64,000 nucleotides of DNA from Roseibium album. GTDB taxonomy: Bacteria > Pseudomonadota > Alphaproteobacteria > Rhizobiales > Stappiaceae. Shown one piece after another: positions 25,750 through 52,920 of the stretch. The DNA lies in contig NZ_CXWE01000001.1 of assembly GCF_001404515.1 (NCBI RefSeq), forward strand, positions 558,001 to 622,000, in the 5' to 3' direction. Position 1 is the first letter of the stretch; every line of letters starts with the position of its first letter. The notes below the pieces were generated by a model, which was not told the origin of the DNA, did not search any database, and worked only from the letters and a program-made list of their open reading frames with translations. A program made the position numbers and the translations under genes.

Positions 25750-26523
25750 ATGTCAAAATTCTCAAATCCTCTTCTGCGGTGCTGGAACGAGGGTCGCTCG
25801 GCCATCAATGGCTGGCTGGCCGTGCCGTCCGTCATTGGCGCGGAGGCCATGGCGGTCGCCGGCTGGGATGCCCTGACGGTCGACATGCAGCATGGCACAG
25901 CGGACTACGCCGATCTGCTGGCGCTCCTTCCCGTTATTGAAAAATCCGGAGCCGCCGCATTGGTCAGAGTGCCCTGGGTGGATGAGGCGGCCATCATGAG
26001 AGCTCTTGACGCGGGAGCGCTTGGCATCATTGCACCGATGATCGAAACCGTTGCTGACGCGGAAAGGTTTGTGTCCGCGTGCAGGTATCCTCCCGAAGGC
26101 GGCAGGAGCTTCGGTCCCATCCGTGCGCGACTGGCCTGGGGATCAGACTATGCCGAGCGCGCCAACCGGGAGATCGTCACCCTGGCGATGATCGAGACGA
26201 AATCCGCCGTGGAGTCCCTGGAAGATATTCTGAAAGTGCCTGGTCTGACGGGGGTCTATATCGGCCCGTCGGATCTTGGCTCCGCATTCGGGTTTGGTCC
26301 CGGTTTCGACCGGCAGGAACCTGAACTGGTCGACCTGATTGAGCATATCCGTCAAACGGCCGCCACGGCAGGGCTGGTATGTTGCCTCCATTGCGGTACT
26401 GCCCCCTATGCAAGGAAAGCGCGGGAGCGCGGCATGAACATGGTCACGGTCAGCTCTGACGCAAGGTTCATCGAGATGGGCGCGGCTATCGCCGTTGCAA
26501 CTGTCAGAAATGAAGAAGACTGA
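25750..26523 (+). CDS. HpcH/HpaI-type aldolase
   Basis: 257 residues from ATG 25750 (AAGGTGA upstream; GTG 25738 would add four residues). Class II pyruvate-aldolase fold: catalytic His in VDMQHG, metal ligands Glu in MIETKSAVE and Asp in IGPSDLG, and GGRSFGP near residue 118. Cleaves or forms 2-keto-3-deoxy/4-hydroxy-2-oxo acids with pyruvate; the exact substrate is open. It is preceded by a 207-bp gap and followed by a 355-bp gap, so it may be its own unit, though direction and neighbours suggest the same catabolic programme. Confidence 0.85.
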   Translation: MSKFSNPLLRCWNEGRSAINGWLAVPSVIGAEAMAVAGWDALTVDMQHGTADYADLLALLPVIEKSGAAALVRVPWVDEAAIMRALDAGALGIIAPMIETVADAERFVSACRYPPEGGRSFGPIRARLAWGSDYAERANREIVTLAMIETKSAVESLEDILKVPGLTGVYIGPSDLGSAFGFGPGFDRQEPELVDLIEHIRQTAATAGLVCCLHCGTAPYARKARERGMNMVTVSSDARFIEMGAAIAVATVRNEED

Positions 26524-26878
26524 CAGGCACCGCGACCCGTTTCTGCACATGGAGGCAGCCTGACTGACTCTGCGCTCCAGGACGTTTCGATCGACACCCG
26601 GTGATTGGACGGTGTGATCGCATGCGAAATGCCGCCAGAAAAACGGCAGCGGGAGATCCCGAAACCTGCGACAAGTGCGACAGTTGAACCTCTTCCGGCT
26701 GATATGGACCGCAAAAACAGACTGAGCGTTATATGACACGCACTCTCCGAGATAGGTCCGAATTCCACCTTGGCGCATGCTGACGGTGTTGCCGTAGACG
26801 CAAAGAAAGCGAACAAAACTGCAAAATGTTTTGCTCCGCCTGCGTCCAGAAGCGGCTGGAATTCGTTGGGAGGAACGG
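26524..26878. promoter_or_regulatory. 355-bp gap, probable promoter of the binding-protein gene, with palindrome
   Basis: No gene seen. It contains the perfect palindrome GCAAAATGTTTTGC-type site (GCAAAA-TG-TTTTGC) at 26821-26834, 45 bp before the start of the Liv-type binding protein, a suitable position for a regulator. A strong ribosome site GGGAGGAA precedes ATG 26879. Confidence 0.5.
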
Positions 26879-28132
26879 ATGAAGAAGCAACTCCTGGCCG
26901 CAGTATCAGCGGCTGCATTTCTATCGACAGGTGCCGCATATGCGGCTGACCCACTGAAAGTCGGTGTTCTGGCCACGTTGGAGGGAACATATACGGTTTT
27001 GGGTGAAGATGGTGTCCGCGGGCTAAGAACCGCGCTGGCCGTCAAGGGTGAAAAAGCCGGTGGCCGTGACCTCGAGCTGATCATTCAGTCTACCGATGCC
27101 TCGCCGGACAGCGCCGTGCGCGGCGCGCGTAAACTGGTTGAACAGGACAAGGTGGACATCGTCATCGGTCCGCTCTCGGGCTCTGAAGGTATCGCGATCC
27201 GCGATTATTCCAAGACCCAGCCCCAGGTCACATTCCTGAATGGCATTTCCGGTGCGCAGGAAACAACCTATGTGACGCCGTCCGATAACTTCTTCAGGTT
27301 CAACACGGATGGTGCCCAATGGTCTGCTGGACTTGGCGATTACGTCTTCAATGACAAGGGTTGGAAATCCGTTGCCACCATCGGCGAGGATTATTCCTTC
27401 ATCTATACGCAGGTCTTCGGATTTGCGCTGGAATATTGCCAGGCGGGTGGTGAAATCACCGACCGGTTCTGGGTTCCGCTCGGAACAAAGGACTTCGGCT
27501 CGATCATCGCTTCACTTCCGGATGATGTTGACGCGATCTATCTTGGCCTGGGTGGCGGTGATGCCGTCAACTTCCTGAACCAGTATCAGCAGGCAGGTGG
27601 CGATGCCAACCTGATTGGCGGATCCATTATGGTTGATGGCACCGTCCTGAACTCCAAAGGCGACGCGAAAAAGGCTCTGATTGGAACGCCGTCTTCCGGA
27701 CCACAGGCTGACACCTGGGACGACGAAGGCTGGCAGGCATATGTAAAAGCCTACCAGGATGCATTCCCGCCCGATCAACGCTTCCCGAGCCCGTCACTTC
27801 TGGCAACCGGTTATTACAACGCCACGACCGCTGCAATGACCTGCCTTGATGAAGTTGGCGGTGATCTTTCCGACGGACATGCGGGTTTCCGTGCTTGCCT
27901 GAGCAATCTTGAGCTGGATGCTCCGAATGGCAAGATCACTCTCGATGGCAACCGTCAGGCAATTGGTGCCAACTTCGTCTCCGAAGTTGTCGAACTGGAC
28001 GACGGTTCGCTTGTGACCAAGCTGGTGAAGATCAAGGACAATGTACCGCAGACACTCGGCATTGATCCCGATGTTTTTGCAAAGATCGGCCTCCCAAGCC
28101 GCGATGTGCCTGAGTGTAAGACCTCTTACTGA
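26879..28132 (+). CDS. Branched-chain-amino-acid-type ABC transporter substrate-binding protein
   Basis: 417 residues with signal peptide (MKKQLLAAVSAAAF; cleavage after AYA). Type I periplasmic binding fold, LivJ/LivK family: LKVGVLATLEGTYTVLGEDG at the mature N-terminus, GPLSGSEG and AYQDAFPPDQRFPS further on. Such proteins often bind aromatic acids, amides or nucleobase-like compounds rather than amino acids. The matching permeases and ATPases lie at 31988-37042, separated by two dehydrogenase-like genes and a regulator. Followed by a strong stem-loop. Confidence 0.9.
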   Translation: MKKQLLAAVSAAAFLSTGAAYAADPLKVGVLATLEGTYTVLGEDGVRGLRTALAVKGEKAGGRDLELIIQSTDASPDSAVRGARKLVEQDKVDIVIGPLSGSEGIAIRDYSKTQPQVTFLNGISGAQETTYVTPSDNFFRFNTDGAQWSAGLGDYVFNDKGWKSVATIGEDYSFIYTQVFGFALEYCQAGGEITDRFWVPLGTKDFGSIIASLPDDVDAIYLGLGGGDAVNFLNQYQQAGGDANLIGGSIMVDGTVLNSKGDAKKALIGTPSSGPQADTWDDEGWQAYVKAYQDAFPPDQRFPSPSLLATGYYNATTAAMTCLDEVGGDLSDGHAGFRACLSNLELDAPNGKITLDGNRQAIGANFVSEVVELDDGSLVTKLVKIKDNVPQTLGIDPDVFAKIGLPSRDVPECKTSY

Positions 28133-28168: not shown

Positions 28169-28214
28169 CGACATGTTTTCACGCTCGATTACCGTGTTTT
28201 CTCGAGATCAGGCC

Positions 28215-29366
28215 ATGACGCTCATCACATACGTCACGCGAGTTCATTTCGCCGACGGCGTTTTGGAAGAAGCGCTTTGGTCCGAGATCGAAGTCAATCG
28301 CAAGAAACGTCCCCTGATCATCACCGATGATCATCATCTGAACAGTGAACTTTTTGAGCGATTGCTGGCCGGATTGCCCGTACGAACGTCCGTCGAGATT
28401 TTCAGCGATATCCCCGACATCCCGAACGAAACCGCCGCCAAGGATATTGCGACTGCGTTTCGGCGTTCAGATCGGGACCTTCTTATCGCCTTCGGGCGAA
28501 ACACGGCGATCGACCTTGCCAAGATTTCAAGAATCACGATTGCCCATTCCGAACCCCTGGAAACCTTTTCCTATGCCAGTGGCGGATCGAGACGCATAGG
28601 GACGACCTTGCCCGATCTTTATGCAATCCCGAGCATTCAGGGTTTTGGAGCAGCCGTGAGTGCCCATGCGCCTGTCATTCTGACGAGTGGCGAGCGCACC
28701 CGGCTCATGTGCAAGAAACTGGTGCCGACGGTGACAATCTGCGATCCGACGCTGACACTCGGCGCGGGCCGGATTGAAAGTGCCAGTGCCGGGGCGGATG
28801 CCATGGGCCGGTGTATTGAGGCCTATCTCTCGCCGGGGTTCAATCCACCGGCAGACGGGATAGCACTGGATGGGCTCGGACGCGTCATCGGCAACTTGCA
28901 CAAGGTGCTCACCGAAGACACTGTACAGGGCCGGCGGGAGCTTATGGCTGCCAGTTTGAACGGTGCATTGGCCTTGCAAAAAGGTCTTGGCGCGATTCAC
29001 GCGATAGGCTGCGCACTTGAAACAGTCGCCGGCAGGCGGCTTGATCCCGGCGCTCTCAGCAGATTGCTTCTGCCGGCGATCCTGCAATTCAATGCCGATG
29101 CCGCCCGGGACAAATACACAACGCTGAATCAGGTTCTCAAATCCGGAGAGAACAGAACGCCCGCCCGCAGCGTGGCTGATTTTCTTTATACCTTGCCGCT
29201 TCCTGAAAGCCTCGCCGAGATGGGCATAGACGAGGAAGAGATCCGGATCGCCGCCGATCTCGCTGCATCTGATCTTGCCGCGGTTCAAAGCCCGAGAGCC
29301 TTGAGCAGCCCGAGCCTGTTTGCGATCATGAAATCGGCTCTCTCGCGCGAATCCCGGGTGAATTGA
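28215..29366 (+). CDS. Iron-containing alcohol dehydrogenase-like protein, metal site degenerate
   Basis: 383 residues from ATG 28215 (ATG 28173 also in frame but within 5 bp of the hairpin). Overall fold of Fe-ADH/glycerol dehydrogenase type: NAD-domain region IAFGRNTAIDLAK, then GADAMGRCIEAY and IHAIGCALE. Of the four usual metal ligands (Asp, His, His, His) only Asp and one His survive: the His four after the Asp is Arg, and the HG-x-ANAILLP His is Pro. GGGS is FGRN and the PTTxGTGSE loop is not conserved. It may be a reductase with another mechanism or a non-catalytic relative. Overlaps the next gene by 1 bp. Confidence 0.75.
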   Translation: MTLITYVTRVHFADGVLEEALWSEIEVNRKKRPLIITDDHHLNSELFERLLAGLPVRTSVEIFSDIPDIPNETAAKDIATAFRRSDRDLLIAFGRNTAIDLAKISRITIAHSEPLETFSYASGGSRRIGTTLPDLYAIPSIQGFGAAVSAHAPVILTSGERTRLMCKKLVPTVTICDPTLTLGAGRIESASAGADAMGRCIEAYLSPGFNPPADGIALDGLGRVIGNLHKVLTEDTVQGRRELMAASLNGALALQKGLGAIHAIGCALETVAGRRLDPGALSRLLLPAILQFNADAARDKYTTLNQVLKSGENRTPARSVADFLYTLPLPESLAEMGIDEEEIRIAADLAASDLAAVQSPRALSSPSLFAIMKSALSRESRVN

Positions 29367-30796
29367 TGAAGCCACTTTTGATCGATGGTGCGTGGATCAC
29401 GACTTCACATGCCGAGGAAAACCGAAATCCTTCCAACACTGACGAGGTCATCGGTCTTTATGCCCATGCCGGCAGAGCGGAAACGCAGGCCGCAATAGAA
29501 GCTGCAAGACTGTCTTTCCCGGCCTGGGCGGCAAGCACACCGCAATTCAGGTTCGAAATCCTGAATAAGGTGGCAGACGAACTGACCTTGCGCAAATCCG
29601 AAATAGCGTCGCTTCTGTCCCGCGAGGAGGGAAAAACGCTTCGTGAAGGACTTCAGGAAACCGAGCGCGCGGCCAACATTTTCAGGTTCTTTGCAGGAGA
29701 GTGCCTTCGCCCTGCCGGAGATCTCATCCCCTCCGTCCGCCCAGACGTAAGCGTGGAAGTTACGCGTGAACCGCTCGGTGTCGTCGGGATCGTCACGCCC
29801 TGGAACTTCCCGCTGGCAATACCGAGCTGGAAGATTGCACCTGCTCTTTGTTACGGTAATACGGTCGTTTTCAAGCCCGCCGAACTCGTGCCGGGATGCG
29901 CCTGGGTCCTTGCGGAAATTCTTCACGGTACCGGTATTCCGAAGGGGGTCTTCAATCTGGTCACCGGCAAGGGCTCGGTTGTCGGGAATACGATGCTTTC
30001 AGCAAGAGACGTTGAGGCCGTTACTTTCACCGGTTCACAGGCGGTCGGGTCCCTTGTTGCTCAGGCCAGCATCAAGCACATGCGCAAGCTGCAGCTCGAA
30101 ATGGGCGGCAAGAACCCGCTTGTCGTGCTCGACGACGCGGACCTGGATCTTGCGGTCGACTGTGCGGTTGACGGAGCGTTTTATTCCACGGGCCAAAGAT
30201 GTACAGCGTCGTCACGCCTGATTGTAACCGAGGGGATCTACGGCAGGTTCATTGAGAAACTGACCGAAAAATGCAGGGGGTTGACGGTTGGCGATGCATT
30301 GGATCCCGCAACTGACATAGGTCCGGTCGCCAGTGCGTCACAACTGGCAACGGATATCGATTATATTGAGATTGCGCGTGCACAGGGTGGAAACCTGCGT
30401 TGCGGTGGCGACATCGTCAAGGGTCACAACCATGGCTATTTCCTGCAACCCGCCCTGTTCACCGACACCGACAACAACATGCGCATCAATCGCGAGGAAG
30501 TCTTCGGACCTGTTGCATCGGTCATTCGTGTTCGCGACTATGAAGAGGCTCTGGCAACGTCAAACGATACCGACTTCGGACTTTGCTCGGGCATCATGAC
30601 AACAAGTCTCAAGCACGCCGCACATTTTCGCAGGGAATCCCGTGCAGGCATGGTCATGGTGAACCTGCCAACGGCCGGGGTGGACTATCATGTACCTTTT
30701 GGTGGCCGAAAGGCATCAAGCTATGGTCCCCGGGAACAGGGGCGCTACGCAGCCGAGTTTTTCAGCACAGTAAAAACAAGTTATATTCGGCCCTGA
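29366..30796 (+). CDS. Aldehyde dehydrogenase (semialdehyde dehydrogenase type)
   Basis: 476 residues from ATG 29366. ALDH family: TPWNFPLAIPSWK, FTGSQAVGS, catalytic Glu in LEMGGKNP, nucleophile Cys in GQRCTASSR and EVFGPVAS. Closest in motif style to alpha-ketoglutarate-semialdehyde or succinate-semialdehyde dehydrogenases (IGPVAS, VNLPTAGVDYHVPFGG). Coupled to the Fe-ADH-like gene by a 1-bp overlap. Likely the oxidising step after the aldolase or other carbon-cleaving enzyme of this region; substrate not decided. Confidence 0.88.
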   Translation: MKPLLIDGAWITTSHAEENRNPSNTDEVIGLYAHAGRAETQAAIEAARLSFPAWAASTPQFRFEILNKVADELTLRKSEIASLLSREEGKTLREGLQETERAANIFRFFAGECLRPAGDLIPSVRPDVSVEVTREPLGVVGIVTPWNFPLAIPSWKIAPALCYGNTVVFKPAELVPGCAWVLAEILHGTGIPKGVFNLVTGKGSVVGNTMLSARDVEAVTFTGSQAVGSLVAQASIKHMRKLQLEMGGKNPLVVLDDADLDLAVDCAVDGAFYSTGQRCTASSRLIVTEGIYGRFIEKLTEKCRGLTVGDALDPATDIGPVASASQLATDIDYIEIARAQGGNLRCGGDIVKGHNHGYFLQPALFTDTDNNMRINREEVFGPVASVIRVRDYEEALATSNDTDFGLCSGIMTTSLKHAAHFRRESRAGMVMVNLPTAGVDYHVPFGGRKASSYGPREQGRYAAEFFSTVKTSYIRP

Positions 30797-30922: not shown

Positions 30923-30946
30923 CGCAAATCATCGGGAGGAATGGTG

Positions 30947-31780
30947 ATGAGCGAAGCGATATCCGTCCACCACGGTGAATTCGGACGCGCGGCTCTTTAT
31001 AGGCTGGACAAACCGATCGTGACACACGCGCATCGGGAAGGTCATTTGATCTTCTATCTGAGCGGTGCGGAAGCCAGGGTCAGCGTATCCGACAAGTGGG
31101 TGCCTGCCGACCAGAATACCGGTGTGGCCGTCAGCCCGTGGGAACAGCACAGCTTTCATCCGAAAACTGAAGCCAATGCGGAGGCATGTCTGTGCCTCGT
31201 GCTCTATATCAAACCGATCTGGTTTCTTGAAAACAGCCAATCTGCGGAATTTGCCCTGAATTTCGGTAGCTCGCACATCGCGATGACACCCGACGTCATG
31301 AATTGGGTCAAACGCTTGACCTCGCTGCTTCTGGACGGCGGCAATGATCACCTTTTCGACGGGTATCTCTATCGCACAACAATGCAGTGCTTCGAACAAT
31401 CCTGGCGCAATGCGGATCGCAATTCGGTGCTGGAAGACAGCAAGCGCCGCTTTACCGATTATCGTGTGCGTCGGTCTTTGCGCCTGATGCAGGAGAATTA
31501 CACCGAAGAAGTCGAGGTGGAATGGCTGGCCCGTGAAGTCGGGCTGTCTCGGCCCCATTTTTTCAAGCTTTTCAAGAAGCAGATGGGTATCACTCCCAAT
31601 CTCTACTTGAATACGCTGCGCGCCGAACAGGCGATTTCGGACCTGATGACGACCGACAAATCGGTCACGGAAATCAGCTACGATTTGGGGTTCTCGTCAC
31701 AGGCAAGCTTTACACGCTTCTTCTCTTCCAACGTTGGAATTCCGCCAAGCGACTACCGCCGTGTCGCCCACGTCGAGTAG
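30947..31780 (+). CDS. AraC-family transcriptional regulator
   Basis: 277 residues. Start ATG 30947 gives a 6-nt gap after GGGAGGA; ATG 30941 is too close to it. N-terminal cupin-like sensing domain (VTHAHREGHLIFYLSG), C-terminal double HTH (about 175-272: VEWLAREVGLSRPHFFKLFKKQ and VTEISYDLGFSSQASFTRFF). It stands between the binding-protein/dehydrogenase genes and the long transporter-hydroxylase operon, so it is the likely pathway regulator. Inducer unknown. Confidence 0.9.
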   Translation: MSEAISVHHGEFGRAALYRLDKPIVTHAHREGHLIFYLSGAEARVSVSDKWVPADQNTGVAVSPWEQHSFHPKTEANAEACLCLVLYIKPIWFLENSQSAEFALNFGSSHIAMTPDVMNWVKRLTSLLLDGGNDHLFDGYLYRTTMQCFEQSWRNADRNSVLEDSKRRFTDYRVRRSLRLMQENYTEEVEVEWLAREVGLSRPHFFKLFKKQMGITPNLYLNTLRAEQAISDLMTTDKSVTEISYDLGFSSQASFTRFFSSNVGIPPSDYRRVAHVE

Positions 31781-31987: not shown

Positions 31988-33001
31988 ATGAGGAACTTTG
32001 CGTCCCGACATCCTGGCTGGTCGATCGTCATTCTGCTGGTAGCTGCCGCGCTGATCTGGTCGATTTTCGCAATCTGGCCGAAAGGTCTGGTCGATGTGAT
32101 CGGCCGCAAGAAAGTGTTTCTCAACGCCCTGTTCAACGGCATCACGCTCGGTGGCCTCTACTTTCTTGTCGCCAGTGGTTTCACGCTCATCTTCGGTCTC
32201 ATGCGCAATGTCAATCTTGCGCACGGCTCCCTTTACCTGCTTGGTGGGTACATCGGTTATTTCGTTGCCTCGTCAACGGGTTATTGGCTCCTTGCCTTTC
32301 CCGTTGCGTTTGTCCTCGTAGCTGCCGTCGGCATCCTGATGCAGATATTCATCTTCCGCCGGATGGAGGGGCAGGACCTCAGGCAAACGCTTGTAACGAT
32401 CGGAATCTCCATCGTGATGGCGGACTTGATGCTTTGGGGCTTCGGCGGAGATTTCTACAACATCACGCCGCCCAGCTGGTTGAGCGGCCCGATGGAAACA
32501 CTCCTGGTGACCGGCGTGAAGCGATCGTCGGGTGACCTCATCTACCTGAAGTATCCGGTTGTTCGGGTCGTTATTTTTCTTGCCTCGGTGGTCATAGGAA
32601 TAGCCATGTGGCTGATCTTGAACCGCACGCAGATTGGCATGATGATCCGGGCTGGGGTCGATGACAGGGACATGTTGTCGGCAACAGGCGCCCGCATCCA
32701 GCTCGTCTTTGTCGGAGTGTTCGCATTCGGGGCAGGCCTCGCGGGTATCGCAGGTGTCGTGGGAGGGACTTTCCAGTCCGTGGCGCCTGGCGAAGACATA
32801 AGGTTTCTGCTGGCATCGCTTGTCGTTGTGATCGTCGGTGGCATGGGGTCGATCACGGGAGCCGCGCTGGGAGCGCTGCTGATCGGTCTCGCCGAACAGT
32901 TCGGATCGGTCTATTTCCCGACTTATGCGGTCGTTCTGACCTTCCTGATCATGGTGCTCGTTCTTGCGTTCCGGCCCCAGGGCCTCATGGGGAGATCCTG
33001 A
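31988..33001 (+). CDS. Branched-chain-type ABC transporter permease (LivH family)
   Basis: 337 residues, about eight membrane segments, LivH family (NALFNGITLGGLYFLVASGFTLIFGLMRNVNLAHG, GGMGSITGA). ATG 31988 follows GAGGA. First gene of a tightly packed operon running to 52402. With the neighbouring LivM, LivG and LivF-fusion it completes an importer for the ligand of the binding protein encoded at 26879. Confidence 0.9.
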   Translation: MRNFASRHPGWSIVILLVAAALIWSIFAIWPKGLVDVIGRKKVFLNALFNGITLGGLYFLVASGFTLIFGLMRNVNLAHGSLYLLGGYIGYFVASSTGYWLLAFPVAFVLVAAVGILMQIFIFRRMEGQDLRQTLVTIGISIVMADLMLWGFGGDFYNITPPSWLSGPMETLLVTGVKRSSGDLIYLKYPVVRVVIFLASVVIGIAMWLILNRTQIGMMIRAGVDDRDMLSATGARIQLVFVGVFAFGAGLAGIAGVVGGTFQSVAPGEDIRFLLASLVVVIVGGMGSITGAALGALLIGLAEQFGSVYFPTYAVVLTFLIMVLVLAFRPQGLMGRS

Positions 33002-33004: not shown

Positions 33005-34072
33005 ATGGCGATAACGGAATCCAATACGCTCCCACGAACAAATAGCGGCCAGCGCAAGGTCTGGTTCGAACGCATACCTGCGAGCTATTGGGTGGTTGGC
33101 ATTGCCCTGTTGATAATGCCCGCATTCGCAAGTGATTTTGCACTCTATCAGGTGTTTGGCTGGACGTTCATTCTCGGCATGATTTCGCTCAGCCTGATGT
33201 TCCTTGGCGGCTATGGCGGCATGGTAAGCCTTGTTCAGATGTCGATTGCAGGCCTGGCCGGATACATGGTCGCAATATTCGGTGACAGTGCGATCACCGA
33301 CATCAGCATGGGCTGGCCATGGTATATCGCAATTCCGCTTGCGCTGATTGTGGCGATGCTCTTCGGTACGATTGTCGGATCCCTCGCCGTGCGGACCGAA
33401 GGCATCTACACAATCATGATCACGCTTGCCGTTGCAGCGGCATTCTTCTACTTCACCCGCCAGAACTATATCATATTCAACGGATTTTCCGGATTTAACG
33501 GTGTGCTTCCACCAGAGCTATTCGGGGTCGACTGGCGGCAAAGCAAGCCCTTTTATTACCTCACTCTGTTTTGGGCGGCAGTCGCCTATTTTTCAGTGCT
33601 CTATGTATCGCGGGCACCATTCGGGCTTGCACTGCAAGGTGTCAGGGATAACCCCCGCCGCATGGCTGCGCTGGGATACAGCGTCAATGCGCACAGAATT
33701 GCTGCCTACGCATTCGCCGCACTCATCGCGGGCACTGGTGGCATTTTGCTGACATGGCAATCCGCACAGATTTCACCGGGCACGGCCGGGATCGGGCCAG
33801 CGATCGACATTCTTGTGATTGCAGTCATTGGTGGCATGAGACGCCCGGCCGGTCCGTTCATCGGCGCCTTCATATATGTTTTGTTGAAGACCTTTGCCAT
33901 CGACGTCCTGCTTTCCGTCGGGTTGAGCGGAGAGCGATTTCAGTTGCTGATTGGCCTGGGTTTTCTGGCGATCGTCTTCTTCTCGCCTGATGGACTGCTC
34001 GGTCTCTGGGATCGCTGGCAGGAGTTCCGCAAACGCGACCCGCTTCTCGATCGCGGGGAGGGTCCGCTTTGA
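33005..34072 (+). CDS. Branched-chain-type ABC transporter permease (LivM family)
   Basis: 355 residues, polytopic, LivM family: LSLMFLGGYGGMVSLVQMSIAGLAGY near residues 62-85, and VIGGMRRPAGPFIGAF near the C-terminus. ATG is 3 bp after the livH-type stop. It forms the second half of the membrane channel. Confidence 0.9.
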   Translation: MAITESNTLPRTNSGQRKVWFERIPASYWVVGIALLIMPAFASDFALYQVFGWTFILGMISLSLMFLGGYGGMVSLVQMSIAGLAGYMVAIFGDSAITDISMGWPWYIAIPLALIVAMLFGTIVGSLAVRTEGIYTIMITLAVAAAFFYFTRQNYIIFNGFSGFNGVLPPELFGVDWRQSKPFYYLTLFWAAVAYFSVLYVSRAPFGLALQGVRDNPRRMAALGYSVNAHRIAAYAFAALIAGTGGILLTWQSAQISPGTAGIGPAIDILVIAVIGGMRRPAGPFIGAFIYVLLKTFAIDVLLSVGLSGERFQLLIGLGFLAIVFFSPDGLLGLWDRWQEFRKRDPLLDRGEGPL

Positions 34073-42302: not shown

Positions 42303-42319
42303 GCGGAGTTGGAAAGGTC

Positions 42320-42763: not shown

Positions 42764-42766
42764 CCA

Positions 42767-43570: not shown

Positions 43571-44052
43571 TGGCCAAGACACCTGTTCAATTCTCACTCA
43601 ATGGATCGTCTGCGGCAGTGTTCGTCGACGATGCCCAAAACCTGCTCGACGTTCTCAGGCGCGGTGTTGGAGATCTGACACCAAAATACGGCTGCGGTCA
43701 GGGTACCTGCGGATCCTGCACTGTGCTGATCGACGGTGAACCGCATTTGAGCTGTCTGACCCTGGCTGAAACCGTTGAAGGACGGTCCGTTGAAACGACG
43801 AACGGACTGGCCGCCGGGCCAAACCTTCATGCGCTTCAGGAAGCATTCATGGAAAACTTTGCTGCCCAGTGCGGATATTGCACACCCGGGATGCTGATGG
43901 CCGCCAAAGCCCTGCTTGACCGCACTCCCAGACCAAGCCGGGAGGAAGTCATCGAAGCGATTTCCGGCAACATCTGCAGATGCACGGGCTACGACCCCAT
44001 AATCGACGCGATCATGGCTGCGAGCGGTCAAGCGACACGGAGGACGGGCTGA
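43567..44052 (+). CDS. Molybdenum hydroxylase [2Fe-2S] subunit (CoxS-like)
   Basis: 161 residues. Two [2Fe-2S] clusters: plant-ferredoxin type at YGCGQGTCGSCTVL ... LSCL and the helical type at QCGYCTPGM ... NICRCTGY. All eight Cys are present. ATG 43567 overlaps the FAD subunit stop; ATG 43570 is an alternative. Carries electrons from the Mo centre to FAD. Confidence 0.93.
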   Translation: MMAKTPVQFSLNGSSAAVFVDDAQNLLDVLRRGVGDLTPKYGCGQGTCGSCTVLIDGEPHLSCLTLAETVEGRSVETTNGLAAGPNLHALQEAFMENFAAQCGYCTPGMLMAAKALLDRTPRPSREEVIEAISGNICRCTGYDPIIDAIMAASGQATRRTG

Positions 44053-45959: not shown

Positions 45960-45961
45960 TC

Positions 45962-46984
45962 ATGACTGTCCACAAGGGGCGCGGCTTTGCCTGCATCAAC
46001 TACCCGATAGGCATGAACCTTGGTGGTGACCCGAGTCAGGCGCTGGTTCATTCAACGCCGGATGGAAAGTTCATGGTGTCCTTGTCGTCCATTGATCTGG
46101 GGCAGGGCATGAAGTCGGTAACCCGCCAGATCGCGGCAGAAACGCTCGGGGTTCCAGTTGCCGACGTCTACGTCGATACCGCAGACAGCGATACTGGTCC
46201 GCATTGCATGGGATCGTTCGCATCCCGTGGAACACACAGGGTTGGAAACGCGGTCATTCGCGCGGCGACAGAAGCACGAAAGGCGTTGCTCGAGGCTGCG
46301 GCGGAAGAGCTCGAAGTCAATGCAGCAGACCTGGAAACAGACGGTCAGGGGAACATTCACGTAAAGGGTGCGCCAACACGGACAATCACAGTCGCCGACA
46401 CGGCAATCGCGGCGCAGTTCAAGCAGGGCAGGACACTGTCGGGCAGAGGGATTTTCCTGATCCCGCCGTCGGACGTCGATCCGGATACCGGCGAGATGAC
46501 GCCGGTTTCCTGCTTCGCCCATGCGGCTCTAGTCGTGGATCTGGAAGTGGATGACGAGACTGGCGAGGTCACCGTCAATGAAATCAATTCTGCGTATGAA
46601 GTTGGTCGAGCGCTAAACCCGCGCCTTGTCGAACAGCAGCTGATTGGTGGTGCCTGGATGGGGGTTTCGCATGCGCTCTATGAAACGACGGAGCCCTACT
46701 ATCCCGACCGGAACCATGGGCCGGAAGACTTCAATGCCTATCTGATGCCCGGTCCCGGTGAGGTTGTTGATCACAACATCGCCGTGCTCGAACGGCCTGC
46801 CGAAGACGCGCCCTTTGGCGGCAAGGGTCCCGGCGAAATGTGCGCCAATCCTGTTCTTCCCGCAATAGCGAATGCGGTCTACAACGCTGTTGGCGTTCGC
46901 TGCGACACGCTGCCGATCACGCCGGAAAGAGTTCTGCGCGGATTGCTCGCGAATGGTGGCGCCAGGCCACAGGGAGTGCGCTGA
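45962..46984 (+). CDS. Molybdenum hydroxylase large subunit, C-terminal half
   Basis: 340 residues from ATG 45962, 2 bp after the previous stop, with GGAGG upstream. Starts at the GRGFACINYPIG segment and contains the Mo-cofactor motifs SIDLGQGMKSV and GSFASRGTH and the catalytic Glu motif FGGKGPGEM near the C-terminus. Together with the preceding gene this covers the whole catalytic subunit of about 780 residues. Intact key residues in both halves argue for a working split enzyme, not a decayed gene. Confidence 0.88.
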   Translation: MTVHKGRGFACINYPIGMNLGGDPSQALVHSTPDGKFMVSLSSIDLGQGMKSVTRQIAAETLGVPVADVYVDTADSDTGPHCMGSFASRGTHRVGNAVIRAATEARKALLEAAAEELEVNAADLETDGQGNIHVKGAPTRTITVADTAIAAQFKQGRTLSGRGIFLIPPSDVDPDTGEMTPVSCFAHAALVVDLEVDDETGEVTVNEINSAYEVGRALNPRLVEQQLIGGAWMGVSHALYETTEPYYPDRNHGPEDFNAYLMPGPGEVVDHNIAVLERPAEDAPFGGKGPGEMCANPVLPAIANAVYNAVGVRCDTLPITPERVLRGLLANGGARPQGVR

Positions 46985-46987
46985 TCC

Positions 46988-47869
46988 ATGCCGGTGAAGC
47001 CTTCCATCGTTGGAATTGATCGCCCTGATCGCTTGAGGGATGCGCTGATCGCTGCCCAGTATATTGCAGGCGATGAACTTTCGACCGCAGCGTATCTGGC
47101 GTTGGCGCTCGGCAAACCCCTGTTGCTCGAAGGCGCACCCGGCGTCGGCAAGACGGAGGCCGCCAAGGCCATTGCGTCAGTGCTTGGCCGTCGCCTTGTA
47201 CGGCTGCAGTGCTTTGAAGGCATTGACGCCGCATCAGCACTTTATGAATGGAACTACACACGTCAAATGCTTGCCATTCGACAAGCCGGTGATGACTACA
47301 TCAACATCTACGACGACCAGTTTCTGCTGCAAAGGCCCATGCTGGAAGCGCTTCGCTCTCCCGATGACTGCGTCCTGCTGATTGACGAGATTGATCGGTC
47401 CGACCAGGAATTCGAAGCGTTTCTGCTGGAGTTTCTTTCGGATTTCGCCATCTCCATTCCCGAAACGGGAACAGTGCGAGCCGTGCGGCCGCCTGTCGTG
47501 GTTCTGACTTCGAACCGGACACGAGATCTTCACGAAGCGCTGCGACGGCGCTGTGTCTATCATTGGATCGACTATCCGGACATCCATCTGGAATCGCGGA
47601 TCGTGATGGCGCGGGCCAGCACCGTGGCGCAAGCCACTGCCGCCGCTGTTGCCGGGGCCGTTGCGAAACTCAGGACCGAGCCGCTTGCCAAACCGCCGGG
47701 TGTCGCCGAAACTGTGGAATGGGCCGAGGCCGCAACGTTGCTCCACGATCAGGGGGCGACCTGGCCGGAAGCGTTCCGACGTGCCATCGGTGTTGCGCTC
47801 AAGGACCATGACGATCTGGATTTTCTGGAAGGCCGTCTCGACAGTTTCATGCCGCAGGAGGCCGCATGA
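46988..47869 (+). CDS. MoxR/CoxD-type AAA+ ATPase
   Basis: 293 residues. AAA+ ATPase: Walker A EGAPGVGKTE (about 49-58), Walker B VLLIDEIDRSD, sensor 1 VLTSNRTRD, Arg finger region RRRCVYHW. CoxD relatives act with CoxE to mature Mo hydroxylases by sulfuration or assembly of the active site. Overlaps the CoxE-like gene by 4 bp, the usual CoxD-CoxE pairing. Confidence 0.9.
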   Translation: MPVKPSIVGIDRPDRLRDALIAAQYIAGDELSTAAYLALALGKPLLLEGAPGVGKTEAAKAIASVLGRRLVRLQCFEGIDAASALYEWNYTRQMLAIRQAGDDYINIYDDQFLLQRPMLEALRSPDDCVLLIDEIDRSDQEFEAFLLEFLSDFAISIPETGTVRAVRPPVVVLTSNRTRDLHEALRRRCVYHWIDYPDIHLESRIVMARASTVAQATAAAVAGAVAKLRTEPLAKPPGVAETVEWAEAATLLHDQGATWPEAFRRAIGVALKDHDDLDFLEGRLDSFMPQEAA

Positions 47870-48969
47870 CGCTTCCTGCCGCGATACGACCCTTTGTCGA
47901 GTTTCCCGCAATTCTTCGGGCACACGGTTTTCCCGTCGCTCCGGATCAGACAATGGGGTTTGTGGAAGCCGTCGGGCTGCTGGGGCCAAGGGACATGCGC
48001 GATATCCGAAGCGCTGCGATTGCCATGCTGTCGGTGCCGAGGGACCGGCAAACGGAATTCGATGCGCTTTTCAAGGCTTATTTCCTGGGTCAGGGACTTG
48101 CGGCGTCAATTGAAGACGATGACGAAGATGATGATGTCCAGGCTTACGAGCCGACAGGGGCCCAGGTGGATGTTGAAGAGGGGATGGAGGAAGACGAAAC
48201 CGGCGACCTTGCGACCTCTGCTGAAATTCTGAGGCGACGGCAATTTGTACCCGCTGACGAAAGTGGTGCCCTCAGGCACCTCGCGCGCCGGGCGGAAAAG
48301 GACCTGCCGCGACGCCTGTCATACCGGCGCGCTTTTTCGCAACGCGGAAACCGGATTGATCTGCGGAAAGCTCTTAAACAGGCATTGCGACAGGATGGGG
48401 AAGTATTCGACTTGCCGGTTACCCGCAGAAAAACGAGACAGCGACGGATCCTGCTGCTGGTCGATGTATCCGGATCGATGACAGACCAGAGCGTCGCAAC
48501 AATGCGGTTTGCACACAAGCTCACGCAAGCGGCCGAACGCGTGGAAACGTTCACTTTCGGAACGCGGTTGACGCGGGTCTCCCACTCCCTTCGGATCAAG
48601 AACACCGATCAGGCCCTGGAGAGTGTCGGGGCCACGGTCGCGGATTTTGACGGTGGAACGCGCATAGGTGATGCCCTTCAGGCCTTTCTTGCGGTTCCGC
48701 GTTTCGCCGGCCAGGCCCGAGGCGCTGCTGTCCTGATCCTGTCCGACGGTCTGGAACGCGGTGAGCCGGCGACGCTTGTCGAGGCCATCCGGAAACTGGC
48801 CCGTCTGTGCTGGCGACTGGACTGGCTCACCCCCCTTGCAGCCGATCCGGGATATGAGCCGCGAACCGAAGCGTTGTCGGCTTGCCTTCCGTTTCTCGAC
48901 AGTCTCGTGCCGGGAGACAGGATCGAGGCTCTCTGCACACATGTTCTCAGTCTTTCGAGGCCCTCATGA
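47866..48969 (+). CDS. CoxE-like von Willebrand factor A domain protein
   Basis: 367 residues. N-terminal helical part with an acidic stretch (about 84-115, EDDDEDDD), then vWA domain about 195-360 with MIDAS DVSGSM, the Thr of DGGTRIGD, and LSDGLERGE. Works with the CoxD-like ATPase in maturing the hydroxylase. ATGA overlaps at both ends. Confidence 0.9.
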   Translation: MTLPAAIRPFVEFPAILRAHGFPVAPDQTMGFVEAVGLLGPRDMRDIRSAAIAMLSVPRDRQTEFDALFKAYFLGQGLAASIEDDDEDDDVQAYEPTGAQVDVEEGMEEDETGDLATSAEILRRRQFVPADESGALRHLARRAEKDLPRRLSYRRAFSQRGNRIDLRKALKQALRQDGEVFDLPVTRRKTRQRRILLLVDVSGSMTDQSVATMRFAHKLTQAAERVETFTFGTRLTRVSHSLRIKNTDQALESVGATVADFDGGTRIGDALQAFLAVPRFAGQARGAAVLILSDGLERGEPATLVEAIRKLARLCWRLDWLTPLAADPGYEPRTEALSACLPFLDSLVPGDRIEALCTHVLSLSRPS

Positions 48970-49841
48970 TCGACGCGCATCATCATATCTGGCGGCAAAA
49001 GGATCTTCCGTGGCTTCTCGGGCCCGAGCAGCCACGGATTTTCGGTCCTTATGCCTCAATAAAACGTGATTACCTCATTGATGAGTTTCGAGAGGATCTC
49101 GGGGAAACCGGGATCATCAAGTCCGTTTATGTGCAGGCAAACTGGGCTCCGAACTGGTTCGAAGATGAAGTTGCGTGGGTGCAATCGGTTGCTGACACGT
49201 CGGGTTGGCCTCATGGCATTGTCGGCTTTGCCGATTTCACCAGCGAAGATGTCAGGCCGCAGCTCGACAGGCTGAAACGCTACCCGCTCATGCGTGGGCT
49301 GCGTCAGCAGTTTCACTGGCACGAAAACCCGCTTTACAGATTTGCAGCCAGACCTGACCTGCCTGCCGATCCGCTTGTTCGCAAGAATATCGCTTACCTG
49401 GCCGAGTATGGCTGGAGTTTTGATTTGCAGGTGTTTCCTTCACAAATGGAATATGCCGCGGAGCTGGCTCGAAGCTGTCCGGACGTGCAATTTGTGCTTA
49501 TGCATGCCGGCATGCTGGAAGACACCAGTGCCGACGGCGTCAAACTTTGGCGCAAGGGCATGCGCCGTTTGGCTGAATGCAACAACGTTGCGACCAAGCT
49601 GTCTGCTTTCGGAACCTTCATTCATAGGAATGATCCCGAGTTTGTCGCCTTCATGATCAAGCAGACCGTCAGCCTTTTCGGTGCAGACAGGTGCATGTTC
49701 GGTTCCAATTTCCCGATCGAAAAACTCTGGACGACCTACGCTGAACTCTTTGGCGCCTTTCAGGAGGGGGCAAAGGGTCTGACCAAGGTGAAAAGGCAGT
49801 CAATTTTCAACGATACGGCTGAGCGGATCTATCGGCTATAG
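48966..49841 (+). CDS. Amidohydrolase-family TIM-barrel hydrolase (COG3618 type)
   Basis: 291 residues from ATG 48966; the longer frame to 48882 lies inside the CoxE-like gene. Starts MIDAHHHIW (HxH metal motif), followed by VYVQANW, LRGLRQQFHW, LMHAGM and CMFGSNFP. Family members hydrolyse lactones such as 2-pyrone-4,6-dicarboxylate, or small cyclic amides. It probably opens a ring made after hydroxylation. Overlaps coxE-like by 4 bp. Confidence 0.88.
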   Translation: MIDAHHHIWRQKDLPWLLGPEQPRIFGPYASIKRDYLIDEFREDLGETGIIKSVYVQANWAPNWFEDEVAWVQSVADTSGWPHGIVGFADFTSEDVRPQLDRLKRYPLMRGLRQQFHWHENPLYRFAARPDLPADPLVRKNIAYLAEYGWSFDLQVFPSQMEYAAELARSCPDVQFVLMHAGMLEDTSADGVKLWRKGMRRLAECNNVATKLSAFGTFIHRNDPEFVAFMIKQTVSLFGADRCMFGSNFPIEKLWTTYAELFGAFQEGAKGLTKVKRQSIFNDTAERIYRL

Positions 49842-49885
49842 CCGATGCTCTGTCGCAGCTCATTCTTTCCATGGGAGTAAAACAA

Positions 49886-50734
49886 ATGGCCCTTACCATA
49901 CACGTTCTGGACTATGGCGACATTGAACTTGAGACATCTTTTCTTGTGCTCGGTCATGAATGCGGCCGGATCCGCCGCGTACCCGTCTACGGGTTCCTGA
50001 TCCTCGGTGGCACGCATCCCGTTCTCGTCGATACTGGGTACCGGGACAACGCGATCATGGAAAGTCTCGGGATGCGGGGACTGCAGTTCCACGACAACAT
50101 GATCGAGAACCAGCTTGCCAAACATGGTCTGAAGCTCGGCGATATTCGTTACATCCTGCACACGCATCTTCACATCGATCACGCAGGCAAGGACGACAAG
50201 TTCCCGATGAATACGACCGTGGTCCTGAACCGCAGGGAGATGGAGTTTTCCGTGTCCGGGATCATGTACCCGCAATATCCGAAACCCGACATCATGCATC
50301 TGGTGGAGCGGATCTATGAACCCGAAGCCATGCGTTTCCTGGATCTTGAGATTACCGGCGCGGAAGAAATCATTCCGGGCGTGTGGTGTGAAGCGGCCGG
50401 CGCACATACTGAAGGGTCGATGAATGTGATCGTGGAAACGGCGGAGGGCCTTGCCTGCATCTGCGGTGACGTCATTTACGATTTCAACGATCAGATCGTG
50501 AACCACGTCCACACCAACAATTGGATGGAACCGCGCGTGACGGGGAACCATTCCGGCTCGAAACGGGAAGAAAAGGGCGCGATCAAGAAGCTTTTGAACA
50601 ATTACACGTTCCTGCTTCCTGTTCATGACCGGCCGGCAAAAATCCAGAACCAGCAAGTGGTTGGCAGGCTTGCCATGACCGTTCCCGGTCCGATGTCCGA
50701 AACGGTGCCCGAGCGGCAGTGGTTCCCGATGTAA
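49886..50734 (+). CDS. Metallo-beta-lactamase-fold hydrolase (lactonase-like)
   Basis: 282 residues from ATG 49886 (GGGAG 8 nt upstream; ATG 49871 would sit on the ribosome site). Metal ligands complete: HTHLHIDHAG, His in AGAHTEGS, Asp in ICGDVIYD, His in LLPVHDRPA. Layout resembles N-acyl-homoserine-lactone lactonases (AiiA/AttM type), which also occur in gamma-butyrolactone catabolism. Quorum quenching is possible, but the operon context favours lactone opening in the pathway. Confidence 0.85.
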   Translation: MALTIHVLDYGDIELETSFLVLGHECGRIRRVPVYGFLILGGTHPVLVDTGYRDNAIMESLGMRGLQFHDNMIENQLAKHGLKLGDIRYILHTHLHIDHAGKDDKFPMNTTVVLNRREMEFSVSGIMYPQYPKPDIMHLVERIYEPEAMRFLDLEITGAEEIIPGVWCEAAGAHTEGSMNVIVETAEGLACICGDVIYDFNDQIVNHVHTNNWMEPRVTGNHSGSKREEKGAIKKLLNNYTFLLPVHDRPAKIQNQQVVGRLAMTVPGPMSETVPERQWFPM

Positions 50735-50791
50735 CTTGATGTATTCCGGGAAGTTTTTGCTTCCCGCTTGACGAAAGACTGGGAGGGATCC

Positions 50792-52402
50792 GTGGGCCAT
50801 ACAGTTGTTGACCCGAAATTTACAGACCTGGTGGACGAGCATGCTGCCGTTGAGCGTATCGGCACCGGTTTCGTCTTCACTGAAGGTCCGATCTGGCATC
50901 CGGTAGACCAGTATCTGCTGTTCTCCGATATGCCCGGCGATGTTCGGCGCAAATGGACCCGGCAATCCGGCGTAACGGAACAGCTTCGCCCGTCGAACAA
51001 AGGCAACGGCATGACTTATGACGCGGAGCTCAATCTCCTCGTCTGTGAACATGCAACGAGTTCGGTCGCCCGCTTTCGCCCGGACGGATCGCGGGAACTT
51101 CTTGCATCCCACTTCGAGGGGCAGGAACTCAATTCGCCGAACGACATTGTCGTCAAATCCGACGGGGCGATCTATTTCACGGATCCGACCTACGGGCGTT
51201 TGGAACACTTTGGTGTGCCTCGCCCGCTTCAACTGGGGTTCCAGGGTGTCTACATGCTTCCGCCGGACCACAAACCCGGCGATGAAGCCGTGCTTGTCTC
51301 CGACCGCTACATGTTCACACAGCCCAATGGACTGTGTTTTTCACCGTGTGAACGCTGGATGTGGGTCAATGATACCGAGCAGGCGAACATTCGCATGTTC
51401 GATGTTGGTGGAGACGGCAGACTGAAAAACAGCCGGATGTTTGCCTCAGGCATCAAGGACAGCGTCAAGGCGGGCGTGCCGGACGGCATGAAGGCCGATG
51501 CCAACGGCAACGTCTGGGTCACCGCACCCGGTGGCGTTTGGGTCTATTCCTTCGAGGGGATGCTGATTGGCAAGATCGAAGTACCCGAGATGGTGGCCAA
51601 CCTTCACTGGGGTGGTGAAGACTGGCAAACCCTCTTCATGTGCGCATGCACCTCTGTCTACACGATAAAGACCAAAATCCGGCCGCGGTCCGAACCCTTC
51701 ATGTCGCCGAAAACGGTCCAAAGTTCTTCACTCGAACAGGCGGCAAACGTCGGTTCTTCCGTGAATGCGTCCTCCAAGGGGCTGCAGATTGCCGCTTGCC
51801 CCGTTCTTGACCCGAAGAAAACGGCACTGCTCATTCAGGATCTTCAGAACGATGTCATGATGGACGGTGGTGCGTTTGCCGAAACCGGGTCGCCGCAGCA
51901 CGCTCGTGACCAGAATGTGGTGTCCAACGCCATTGCGCTTGCGGAAGCCGCGCGCCGAAACGGCATGCCCGTCATCCATATATGGATGGTCTGTGAACCG
52001 GGGCATCCGCTGCTCTCCCAGCATGCTCCTCTCTTTCAGGGATTGAAAGGGGAGAATGCCCTTGTCCGGGGTACGTGGGGTGTTGCCCCTGTGCCGGGGC
52101 TTGAGCCGCGGCCGGAAGATCTCGTGTGTGAAAAGATGTCGATGAGCGGTTGGGAGACGTCGCGCCTTGAAAGCTACCTCAACCACGCAGGCATCGACAC
52201 GATCATCAACACTGGTTCCTGGACCAACATGAGCGTTGAACACACGGCCCGCACGGCTGCGGACAAAGGGTTCCAGGTCATCGTTCCGGAAGATGCCTGT
52301 TCAACCATGAATGCGGACTGGCACCGGGCTTCGATTAATTTTGGCATGCAGAACGTCGCAAATGTCACCGATACGGCATCCGTCATTGCAGCCTTGCGCT
52401 AG
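50792..52402 (+). CDS. SMP-30/gluconolactonase fused to an isochorismatase-like domain
   Basis: 536 residues from GTG 50792 (GGGAGGG 5 nt upstream). Residues 1-300: six-bladed SMP-30 lactonase with metal ligands Glu in TEGPIWHP, Asn in NSPNDIVV and Asp in VPDGMKAD. A linker of about 35 residues follows. Residues ~340-536: isochorismatase/cysteine-hydrolase fold with Asp in LIQDLQND, but the nucleophile position reads GSWTNMSVEHTA, Ser where the family has Cys. So one polypeptide combines a likely active lactonase with an altered amidase-type domain. Last gene of the operon. Confidence 0.87.
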   Translation: MGHTVVDPKFTDLVDEHAAVERIGTGFVFTEGPIWHPVDQYLLFSDMPGDVRRKWTRQSGVTEQLRPSNKGNGMTYDAELNLLVCEHATSSVARFRPDGSRELLASHFEGQELNSPNDIVVKSDGAIYFTDPTYGRLEHFGVPRPLQLGFQGVYMLPPDHKPGDEAVLVSDRYMFTQPNGLCFSPCERWMWVNDTEQANIRMFDVGGDGRLKNSRMFASGIKDSVKAGVPDGMKADANGNVWVTAPGGVWVYSFEGMLIGKIEVPEMVANLHWGGEDWQTLFMCACTSVYTIKTKIRPRSEPFMSPKTVQSSSLEQAANVGSSVNASSKGLQIAACPVLDPKKTALLIQDLQNDVMMDGGAFAETGSPQHARDQNVVSNAIALAEAARRNGMPVIHIWMVCEPGHPLLSQHAPLFQGLKGENALVRGTWGVAPVPGLEPRPEDLVCEKMSMSGWETSRLESYLNHAGIDTIINTGSWTNMSVEHTARTAADKGFQVIVPEDACSTMNADWHRASINFGMQNVANVTDTASVIAALR

Positions 52403-52569
52403 ACCGGGAGGCAACGCACCACGATATCGCGGCAGCCACCGGGTTCTTTGTGACTGAGGATTTCAGCCAGATTGAATTTGCACGAGCGCAGATCGATCTG
52501 AAGCGCCGAAACTCCTGACCGGTTCAATTGTACCAGGTTCGCCTGGGGCCCCAAATTGACGATGCCGAC

Positions 52570-52920
52570 CTAAAGATGGGACAGGACGTTGAGAAGCTTT
52601 CCGGCAGGGTCGTTCACGTAGAAACGCCGGACACCCCAAGGTTCGTTTGTCAATTCGTACTCGATTTTGTGACCAAGTTCTTTCGCACGGCGATAGACCT
52701 CGTCAACGTCATCGACTTCGATGGACGCGTCGGGAACAGGCGTCCCTGAGCCACCCTCGGAAGCAATACTGACTTGAACCCTGGCGGTCGCATCTGAAGC
52801 CATGGTAGCAATCCAGCCCTGATCCATGATCGTTTCAAGATCAAAAAGTTCGGCATAGAATTCTCGAACTTCATCGACTGAACTTGTCGCGATGTCGAAC
52901 ACGATGCGCTTGACGGTCAT
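52570..52920 (-). CDS. Glyoxalase/bleomycin-resistance fold (VOC) protein
   Basis: 116 residues from ATG 52920, with GGAGG 7-8 nt upstream on the minus strand; the frame is open to 52953. Vicinal-oxygen-chelate repeat halves: KRIVFDIATSSVDEVREFYAELFDLE and GVRRFYVNDPAGKLLNVLSHL. Too small for a specific call; may be an isomerase, dioxygenase-like or antibiotic-binding protein. Convergent with the preceding operon. Confidence 0.82.
   Translation of the reverse strand: MTVKRIVFDIATSSVDEVREFYAELFDLETIMDQGWIATMASDATARVQVSIASEGGSGTPVPDASIEVDDVDEVYRRAKELGHKIEYELTNEPWGVRRFYVNDPAGKLLNVLSHL

Follow-up and report, generated by a model that had tools for sequence, protein, structure and literature searches.

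In a window of 64,000 nucleotides from Roseibium album (contig NZ_CXWE01000001.1, positions 558,001 to 622,000; 6.9-Mb assembly in 32 contigs), 18 genes at 31988–52402 run on the plus strand and encode, among other proteins, a Liv-type importer, a giant flotillin and a split molybdenum (Mo) hydroxylase. We propose, with a probability of about 0.5, that this operon imports a small, probably sugar-like compound and that the Mo hydroxylase oxidises it while tethered to a flotillin scaffold through a Pro/Ala-rich tail and a conserved end-peptide. What is new, as far as it can be read from the genes, is an address-like tail on a Mo enzyme and its association, through a single event that was then retained, with a giant flotillin whose rod length is quantised. 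Neither this tail with its end-peptide nor the 11-residue quantisation of the rod was part of an earlier description of the region made from its letters (the original prediction). To our knowledge, bacterial flotillins have few defined clients; a flotillin that shares a conserved operon with an enzyme apparently bearing an address peptide makes a scaffold function directly testable with one peptide, one enzyme and one scaffold. Positions below are those of the window, the operon and its 5' genes all lying on the plus strand, and loci and genomes are cited by our own L and G numbers.

A conserved end-peptide behind a variable tail

The N-terminal Mo subunit (44052–45959) comprises a hammerhead and a MoCoBD_1 domain and continues into a Pro/Ala-rich tail, 91–199 residues long among the loci (median 152), that closes with a C-terminal peptide of the approximate form RF-x-S-G-x-RRR. 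In the host, the linker, that is, the tail minus its last 11 residues, is encoded at 45390–45923 and the peptide, ending SRFLSGSRRR, at 45924–45956. Among the 82 loci of the series L050–L136 with a match to this subunit, 77 end in R-R/K-R. The exceptions are three flotillin-less loci (L052–L054), L116, which is frameshifted and whose second piece also ends in RRR, and the distant L136, which is cut by the end of the stretch. All 70 loci of the series with a flotillin match belong to the 77; for the other seven (L055, L068, L086, L094, L103, L109 and L128) the flotillin position is obscured by the limits of the contig or by a gap. The basic end was also found in ten further loci (L152–L154 and L159–L165, of which at least L160 and L163 duplicate earlier loci, L107 and L093), nine of them with a flotillin in view and one, L153, cut. 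Thirteen related loci (L052, L053, L054, L146–L151 and L155–L158) possess the FAD, FeS and both Mo subunits, and in 11 of them the Mo genes are followed by MoxR, CoxE and Amidohydro_2. No flotillin was found in these 13 within the stretch examined, which extends some 9–18 kb upstream, and their N-terminal Mo subunit ends 11–17 residues past the core, without a tail.

Counted from the end, pairwise identity across the 77 loci is 0.90 at G(-5) and 0.80 at S(-6) and mostly 0.12–0.25 in the linker, where two positions come near 0.5; the identity of the last three residues is set by the selection of the rows. Six of the 77 deviate, upstream of the basic end, from even looser forms of the two peptide subtypes. 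A search of the host genome with the end pattern of its subtype gave two matches, one here and one antisense to a sigma-54 response-regulator gene.

The conserved end might be a mere by-product of translational coupling, in which the Shine-Dalgarno sequence of the C-terminal Mo subunit (45962–46984) has settled on a neutral low-complexity tail. AGGAGG at 45948–45953, the likely Shine-Dalgarno sequence of that gene, indeed codes for two of the three Arg residues and is suitably spaced from the following ATG, and GGAG or AGGA occurs in the last 12 bases of 70 of the 77 loci. We nevertheless regard this explanation as very improbable. The basic end persists in the seven loci without either core (of which L087 and L098 have the weaker GAGG), five codons are in use for the last Arg (CGC 41, CGT 18, CGA 9, AGA 5, CGG 4), and S(-6) and G(-5) are conserved. 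On these grounds the end-peptide appears to be selected at the protein level, a Shine-Dalgarno origin of RRR being only partial. Moreover, the tail-less relatives have the same order of Mo subunits, and coupling therefore does not need a tail.

Cargo peptides of encapsulins and microcompartments are short conserved terminal peptides behind a variable linker, and the N-terminal Mo subunit carries just such a peptide and linker. Unlike those compartments, the cluster has no known shell protein among its Pfam matches; the candidate scaffold is the flotillin.

Length of the flotillin rod

The flotillin (37894–41373, 1159 residues) consists of an N-terminal helix, an SPFH/Band_7 domain, a long rod and a Flot C-terminal domain. 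Both flotillin domains (PF01145 and PF15975) scored above their cut-offs, and the match to the NCBIfam equivalog FloT reached 39.5 of the 700 bits required. The rod (residues 201–985, 785 residues; 38494–40848) contains no proline and has an 11-residue period with a 44/88-residue super-repeat: identity within it peaks at lags 44 (33%) and 88 (32%) and at other multiples of 11. Among 78 flotillin rods, 74 from Mo clusters and four from clusters lacking Mo genes, 32 different lengths occur, all of which leave a remainder of either 4 (45 rods) or 7 (33 rods) on division by 11. In this count a few genomes are represented more than once; when the G loci are left out, 68 rods of 28 lengths remain, in the same two classes. 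Rod length therefore changes in whole 11-residue units within each class, and the rods form a natural length series in such steps. Four flotillins from outside such clusters, the second copy of the host included, have rods of 184–235 residues, and two of the four fall outside both classes. This second host flotillin is of ordinary size (624 residues, rod 235), and the genome also has a second UPF0261 gene (35% identical); these two additional copies lie outside the window (G000:C1:775461-776645 and G000:C1:906925-907611).

In Mo clusters the rods measure 422–810 residues (n = 74). Human flotillin forms a right-handed helical barrel with a wall of 186 residues and a height of 22 nm, and SPFH wall helices span 44–189 residues, according to PMC11260169. 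From these values the host rod would be approximately 93 nm high by linear scaling, or approximately 118 nm as a straight helix. With the human FLOT1/2 cage of that source the protein shares an SPFH domain, a helical wall and a C-terminal cap, and a right-handed barrel fits the 11-residue repeat; unlike it, the wall of the predicted assembly is 422–810 residues long and is encoded in a catabolic operon. We consider it unlikely that the flotillin forms an outright cage, grown by an 11-residue ruler to some 90–120 nm, that would act as a catabolic membrane organelle over the Liv importer and be loaded with the Mo hydroxylase by its C-terminal cargo peptide. No paper linking a hendecad repeat with flotillin was found in the open-access literature.

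Conservation of the gene set

The LivF–UPF0261 protein was searched in the host genome and 60 relatives, and 18 genomes were then read around strong matches. Nine of the 18 carry the set, six from the same genus (G030, whose copy is broken by scaffold gaps, G005, G010, G023, G032 and G013) and three from other families (G049, G057 and G055); the other nine showed only parts of it in the stretches examined. A search of genome contigs with the C-terminal Mo subunit gave at least 562 relatives among 592 stretches. The best 80 of these come from many alphaproteobacterial families and some gammaproteobacteria, with the set present as far as the contigs reach, and the closest named relatives among them are from Labrenzia/Roseibium (99–95% identity). 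Presence was counted over 82 loci (L050–L134 minus L052–L054), the denominators being those whose contig covers the place in question. A flotillin adjoins the Mo genes in 68 of 69 loci; in the sole miss, L055, the place is filled with N, a scaffold gap and so not evidence of true loss. The other counts were 67/68 for LivF–UPF0261, 65/68 for PEP_hydrolase, 68/69 and 70/72 for the two SRPBCC proteins, 80/80 for MoxR, 77/77 for CoxE, 75/75 for Amidohydro_2, 67/74 for the metallo-beta-lactamase-fold protein and 62/65 for the SGL–isochorismatase fusion; the SnoaL-like gene was found in only 8/71. One copy (L094) comes from a metagenome-assembled genome, with its genes spaced out as if by insertions.

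Since nine of 18 genomes carry the set, three of them in other families, and further loci keep it as far as their contigs reach, its co-occurrence is far beyond chance. We therefore abandoned the idea of a private island, as which the region had been described: the cluster is conserved across many marine and soil bacteria in near-constant order. The HpcH/HpaI aldolase, which the original prediction had counted as a member, was dropped as well. Among the relatives it was found only in the near-identical G030 and not in the 4.5–6 kb upstream of the binding protein in the eight other set-carrying genomes.

The family of the C-terminal Mo subunit occurs in 49 of 297 evenly drawn genomes of the order and in 16 of 398 of the phylum, own genome included. 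Among the plasmid matches listed (40 of 1013 records), five have 60–85% identity, after which identity drops to at most approximately 35%. By this sharp step the family looks like a distinct subfamily, which among the same matches extends to Nonomuraea (64%) and the haloarchaeon Salinigranum (60%). In the open-access literature, no paper was found that links flotillin with a molybdenum hydroxylase; those that bring up flotillin, molybdopterin and a gene cluster together appear to be unrelated.

Linkage of tail and flotillin

When 103 C-terminal Mo subunits are placed in a tree, those of the flotillin-less set split off by one change (100/100), which with a midpoint root, and depending on that root, is one gain. 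As tail and flotillin differ on this one branch, their association is a single event, kept in every locus where both are readable, and it does not name the partner of the peptide. Tail length and rod length are correlated (Spearman 0.42, n = 74), which we did not use as evidence because the relation is confounded by descent, peptide subtypes following rod classes in 71 of 74.

That there is only one such change weighs against our reading, and so do several other observations. The flotillin-less loci also yielded no LivF–UPF0261 fusion, PEP_hydrolase-like protein, metallo-beta-lactamase-fold protein or SGL–isochorismatase, and any of these co-absent genes could provide the partner of the peptide. 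In 70 of the 77 loci the Shine-Dalgarno sequence of the following gene partly dictates RRR. The Mo clusters of G114 and G181 are without a flotillin, yet both genomes have one of 729–734 residues in a separate cluster lacking Mo genes. Nor are long rods confined to Mo clusters, since G377 has one of 590 residues and no such Mo genes in the 36 kb read; the notion that long rods occur only with Mo is weakened accordingly. Finally, the AlphaFold2 model of the flotillin monomer has low confidence (mean pLDDT 58.8); it is largely helical between residues 203 and 974, with the rod broken in three places, and speaks neither for nor against one continuous helix.

The end-peptide might instead anchor the enzyme in the lipid or have a different partner within the set, for example LivF–UPF0261, the role of the flotillin being only to organise the membrane patch. 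The peptide does mix F, I and L with RRR-COOH, and LivF–UPF0261 is as constant as the flotillin (67/68 vs 68/69) and shows the same split on the tree. Against this, a scan for basic Pro/Ala/Gly-rich ends in four of the clusters lacking Mo genes (G076, G114, G181 and G377, but not G003, G018, G024 or L135) returned one open reading frame (ORF), in G076, which ends in SGSRRR but lies antisense to an SRPBCC2 fusion. The set without the Mo enzyme thus seems to have no tail, and we rate the anchor or other partner as a serious but less probable alternative to docking on the flotillin.

The Mo hydroxylase and its candidate substrate

The FAD subunit (42767–43570), the [2Fe-2S] subunit (43570–44052, start at 43567 or 43570) and the two Mo subunits place the enzyme in the xanthine dehydrogenase family, the FAD, the two [2Fe-2S] and the Mo-cofactor domains all scoring above Pfam cut-offs. 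The N-terminal Mo subunit has the GGGFGGK loop (GGGFGGKVD). In the C-terminal one (MoCoBD_2), the Glu of GKGPGE, E292, which we take to be the catalytic Glu of this domain, aligns with GVGE of 3hrd_B and is invariant in 7/7 alignment rows. An aerobic Mo-Cu CO dehydrogenase was rejected: the loop here is AMRGFG, against the AYxCSFR that we assume for its active site. Xanthine dehydrogenase proper is not favoured; the residue after GGGFGGK is V here, where the bovine enzyme presumably has Glu. Among Mo enzymes of solved structure, nicotinate dehydrogenase and 4-hydroxybenzoyl-CoA reductase come nearest. Like our enzyme, nicotinate dehydrogenase NdhFSLM (3hrd) is a Mo hydroxylase of this family whose Mo subunit is split at the same boundary (MoCoBD_1/MoCoBD_2), and it is the best sequence match of the N-terminal and the second best of the C-terminal half. 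It differs in its large chain, of whose 425 residues the match covers all as far as residue 423 and which therefore has no such tail; in addition, no family of the nicotinate pathway scored above cut-off in the cluster. In one genome (L181, G209) a flotillin lies, possibly by chance, approximately 3 kb from a distant Mo hydroxylase (subunits 26–39% identical) on the opposite strand.

Downstream lie an Amidohydro_2 hydrolase (48966–49841), a metallo-beta-lactamase-fold hydrolase (49871–50734) and an SMP-30/gluconolactonase-like (SGL) domain fused to an isochorismatase-like amidase domain (50768–52402). The nearest families are L-fucono-1,5-lactonase for the first, N-acyl homoserine lactone lactonase and 4-pyridoxolactonase for the second, and gluconolactonase and the isochorismatase-group amidases for the third, all below the NCBIfam cut-offs. 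Against NF052480 (L-fucono-1,5-lactonase, cut-off 400) the Amidohydro_2 protein scored 97.1 bits and that of L151 106.3, so that the superfamily is shared and the equivalog is not. Importers of monosaccharide type, below equivalog cut-offs, stand beside four of the 13 flotillin-less relatives, xylose-type in L150 and ribose/arabinose-type in L155–L157, which represent one genus. An L-glyceraldehyde-3-phosphate-reductase-like enzyme that scores above its cut-off is encoded in L150 as well, and L149 has one that is 65% identical. In L151, minus-strand ORFs at approximately 15900–17932 repeat SLLTRERGSK and look like a translated CRISPR repeat array.

Because of these lactonase-type hydrolases and the sugar importers beside some flotillin-less relatives, we tentatively favour, at somewhat less than even odds, a sugar-like aldehyde or lactol that would be oxidised to a lactone or acid. 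A Liv-type importer and the identity of the nearest solved Mo enzymes speak against a sugar, and an N-heterocycle or aromatic substrate is a weaker candidate that still deserves consideration. Oxidative pathways for L-fucose and L-rhamnose employ a lactonase of the Amidohydro_2 family, an aldonate dehydratase and a usual sugar dehydrogenase. The cluster resembles them in its Amidohydro_2 lactonase family and, in Yoonia, in additional genes for a FAH-type protein similar to 2,4-didehydro-3-deoxy-L-rhamnonate hydrolase (412 bits, cut-off 500) and two short-chain dehydrogenases/reductases. It departs from them in that no aldonate dehydratase family is among its Pfam matches and in that the Mo enzyme would take the place of the sugar dehydrogenase normally used. 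No open-access paper was found that links fuconolactonase with molybdopterin, nor one that describes a pathway with this gene set, in agreement with the original prediction, which could name no pathway.

The operon might also be an ordinary catabolic one for an N-heterocycle, an aromatic or a cyclic amide, along the lines of the original prediction, which had named N-heterocycles, furans and cyclic amides as candidates. The flotillin would then be a microdomain protein of general function, not specifically connected with the Mo enzyme. The closest Mo enzymes of solved structure, one of them with the same split, would fit this, as would the isochorismatase-like amidase domain and a hydantoinase/oxoprolinase gene that follows a Mo-less cluster in G024. 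Such an operon leaves the tail, the end-peptide and the rod length unexplained, however, and it sits poorly with three hydrolase domains that are nearest to lactonases and with the sugar importers beside some relatives; we think it unlikely.

Clusters lacking Mo genes and the Tm-1 halves

UPF0261, the N-terminal half of Tm-1, is fused to the importer ATPase LivF in a single 721-residue ORF (34877–37042), and the C-terminal half, a PEP_hydrolase-like TIM barrel, is encoded by the next gene (37039–37872). The original prediction had recognised these halves, and they are real: PF06792, PF23189 and PF09370 scored above cut-off, both Tm-1-like domain families thus being present, with UPF0261 N and C domains behind LivF matching Tm-1 (3wry, E 5e-97) and the following protein 2p10 (E 1e-120). 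Tm-1-like proteins combine UPF0261 with a TIM barrel, as described in PMC5028733; both halves are present and adjacent here, but UPF0261 is fused to the ABC ATPase and the barrel is separate. The cluster thereby puts Tm-1 protein halves on an importer ATPase. A UPF0261 protein other than Tm-1 also has a solved structure (PDB 9mpy).

The importer part also exists as a chassis with no Mo genes in the sequence examined (G003, G018, G024, G076, G114, G181 and Variovorax L135), consisting of the Liv importer, LivF–UPF0261, the PEP_hydrolase-like protein (not found in all), a flotillin and SRPBCC proteins. Rods in such clusters measure 180 (G003), 213 (L135), 334 (G076), 370 (G018, G024, G114 and G181) and 590 residues (G377). 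G377 has the upstream genes, the long-rod flotillin, a metallo-beta-lactamase and an aldehyde dehydrogenase; what follows LivF there matches UPF0261 only weakly. In Terrarubrum, Bosea and Sinorhizobium the Tm-1 halves come after ABC importers of the sugar type. From the chassis without Mo genes and from these other importers it follows that the Tm-1 pair belongs with import and that the enzyme set is exchangeable. In L032 (5951–7642, G003), beside a chassis, a PEP_hydrolase-like domain is joined to a Fis-type helix-turn-helix in a 563-residue protein, and in L139 and L140 (Sinorhizobium and Mesorhizobium) an annotated sigma-54-dependent Fis-family regulator adjoins the Tm-1 pair; together these suggest a sensor use of the TIM barrel. 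In L136 (Thermomicrobium roseum) and L142 (Bradyrhizobium) the pair lies near annotated phosphoenolpyruvate (PEP)/pyruvate-binding or PEP-utilising enzymes or pyruvate kinase, possibly a hint to its chemistry.

Between flotillin and Mo genes lie SRPBCC protein 1 (41374–41811), the optional SnoaL-like protein (41838–42302) and SRPBCC protein 2 (42320–42763). CoxG serves as a quinone carrier, and the SRPBCC proteins could likewise carry electrons from the Mo enzyme to the membrane. SRPBCC2 is located directly 5' of the Mo genes, and in the Mo-less clusters of L135, G076 and, by reading of its sequence, G024 it is fused to a zinc-type dehydrogenase/reductase domain that we read as quinone-oxidoreductase-like. 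The Pfam family, however, is Polyketide_cyc2 and not CoxG, and no chain named CoxG was among 60 of the 70 PDB matches, which makes such carriers improbable.

Proposed mechanism

In the reading we prefer, flotillin subunits would be arranged side by side on the cytoplasmic membrane, forming a wall or dome that surrounds the Liv importer, and the end-peptide would dock the Mo enzyme on the flotillin or on the membrane patch that it defines. Uptake may be coupled to a first step by LivF–UPF0261 and the PEP_hydrolase-like protein. The Mo site would be matured by the MoxR-type AAA ATPase (46988–47869) and the CoxE-type VWA protein (47866–48969), the product opened by the lactonase-type hydrolases, and an amide cleaved by the isochorismatase-like domain. 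The sequence of steps put forward in the original prediction (import, hydroxylation, ring opening, amide cleavage, aldehyde oxidation, aldolase) is possible, judging from the protein families.

Layout of the locus and neighbouring genes

The ORFs and domains of the Liv importer, the giant flotillin, the split Mo hydroxylase and the lactonase- and amidase-family hydrolases are as originally described, and the genes do form one block resembling a transcription unit. The run and its coordinates also stood, with 18 genes, by ORF list and Pfam, instead of the seventeen first counted. With refined starts, spacing ranges from -8 to +57 bases. The order is two Liv permeases (31988–33001 and 33005–34072), LivG (34069–34884), LivF–UPF0261, PEP_hydrolase-like, flotillin, SRPBCC, SnoaL-like, SRPBCC, the FAD, FeS and two Mo subunits, MoxR, CoxE, Amidohydro_2, the metallo-beta-lactamase fold and SGL–isochorismatase; permeases and LivG were assigned by Pfam and relatives. 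A scan of 41300–53600 for promoters and terminators gave no excess over shuffled sequence.

Upstream of the run lie four further genes. The Liv-type periplasmic binding protein (Peripla_BP_6, 26879–28132; ATG with a Shine-Dalgarno sequence at 26879) is part of the conserved set in variable position. It is followed by an iron-containing alcohol dehydrogenase (28173–29366; likely start 28173 or 28215), whose identity outside the genus is only 26–40%, and by an accessory aldehyde dehydrogenase (29366–30796). For the latter the best NCBIfam match, below cut-off, is alpha-ketoglutaric semialdehyde dehydrogenase; the gene is also present in Yoonia and was not found in G049, G057 and G055. An AraC-type regulator (30941–31780), assigned by Pfam and relatives, precedes the run. 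Farther out, 22231–25542, directly upstream of the aldolase, holds genes for a PrsW-type intramembrane protease and a VWA-domain protein and a 424-residue ORF without a Pfam match, and downstream of the operon an AraC regulator with a DJ-1/PfpI domain is encoded at 55528–56514.

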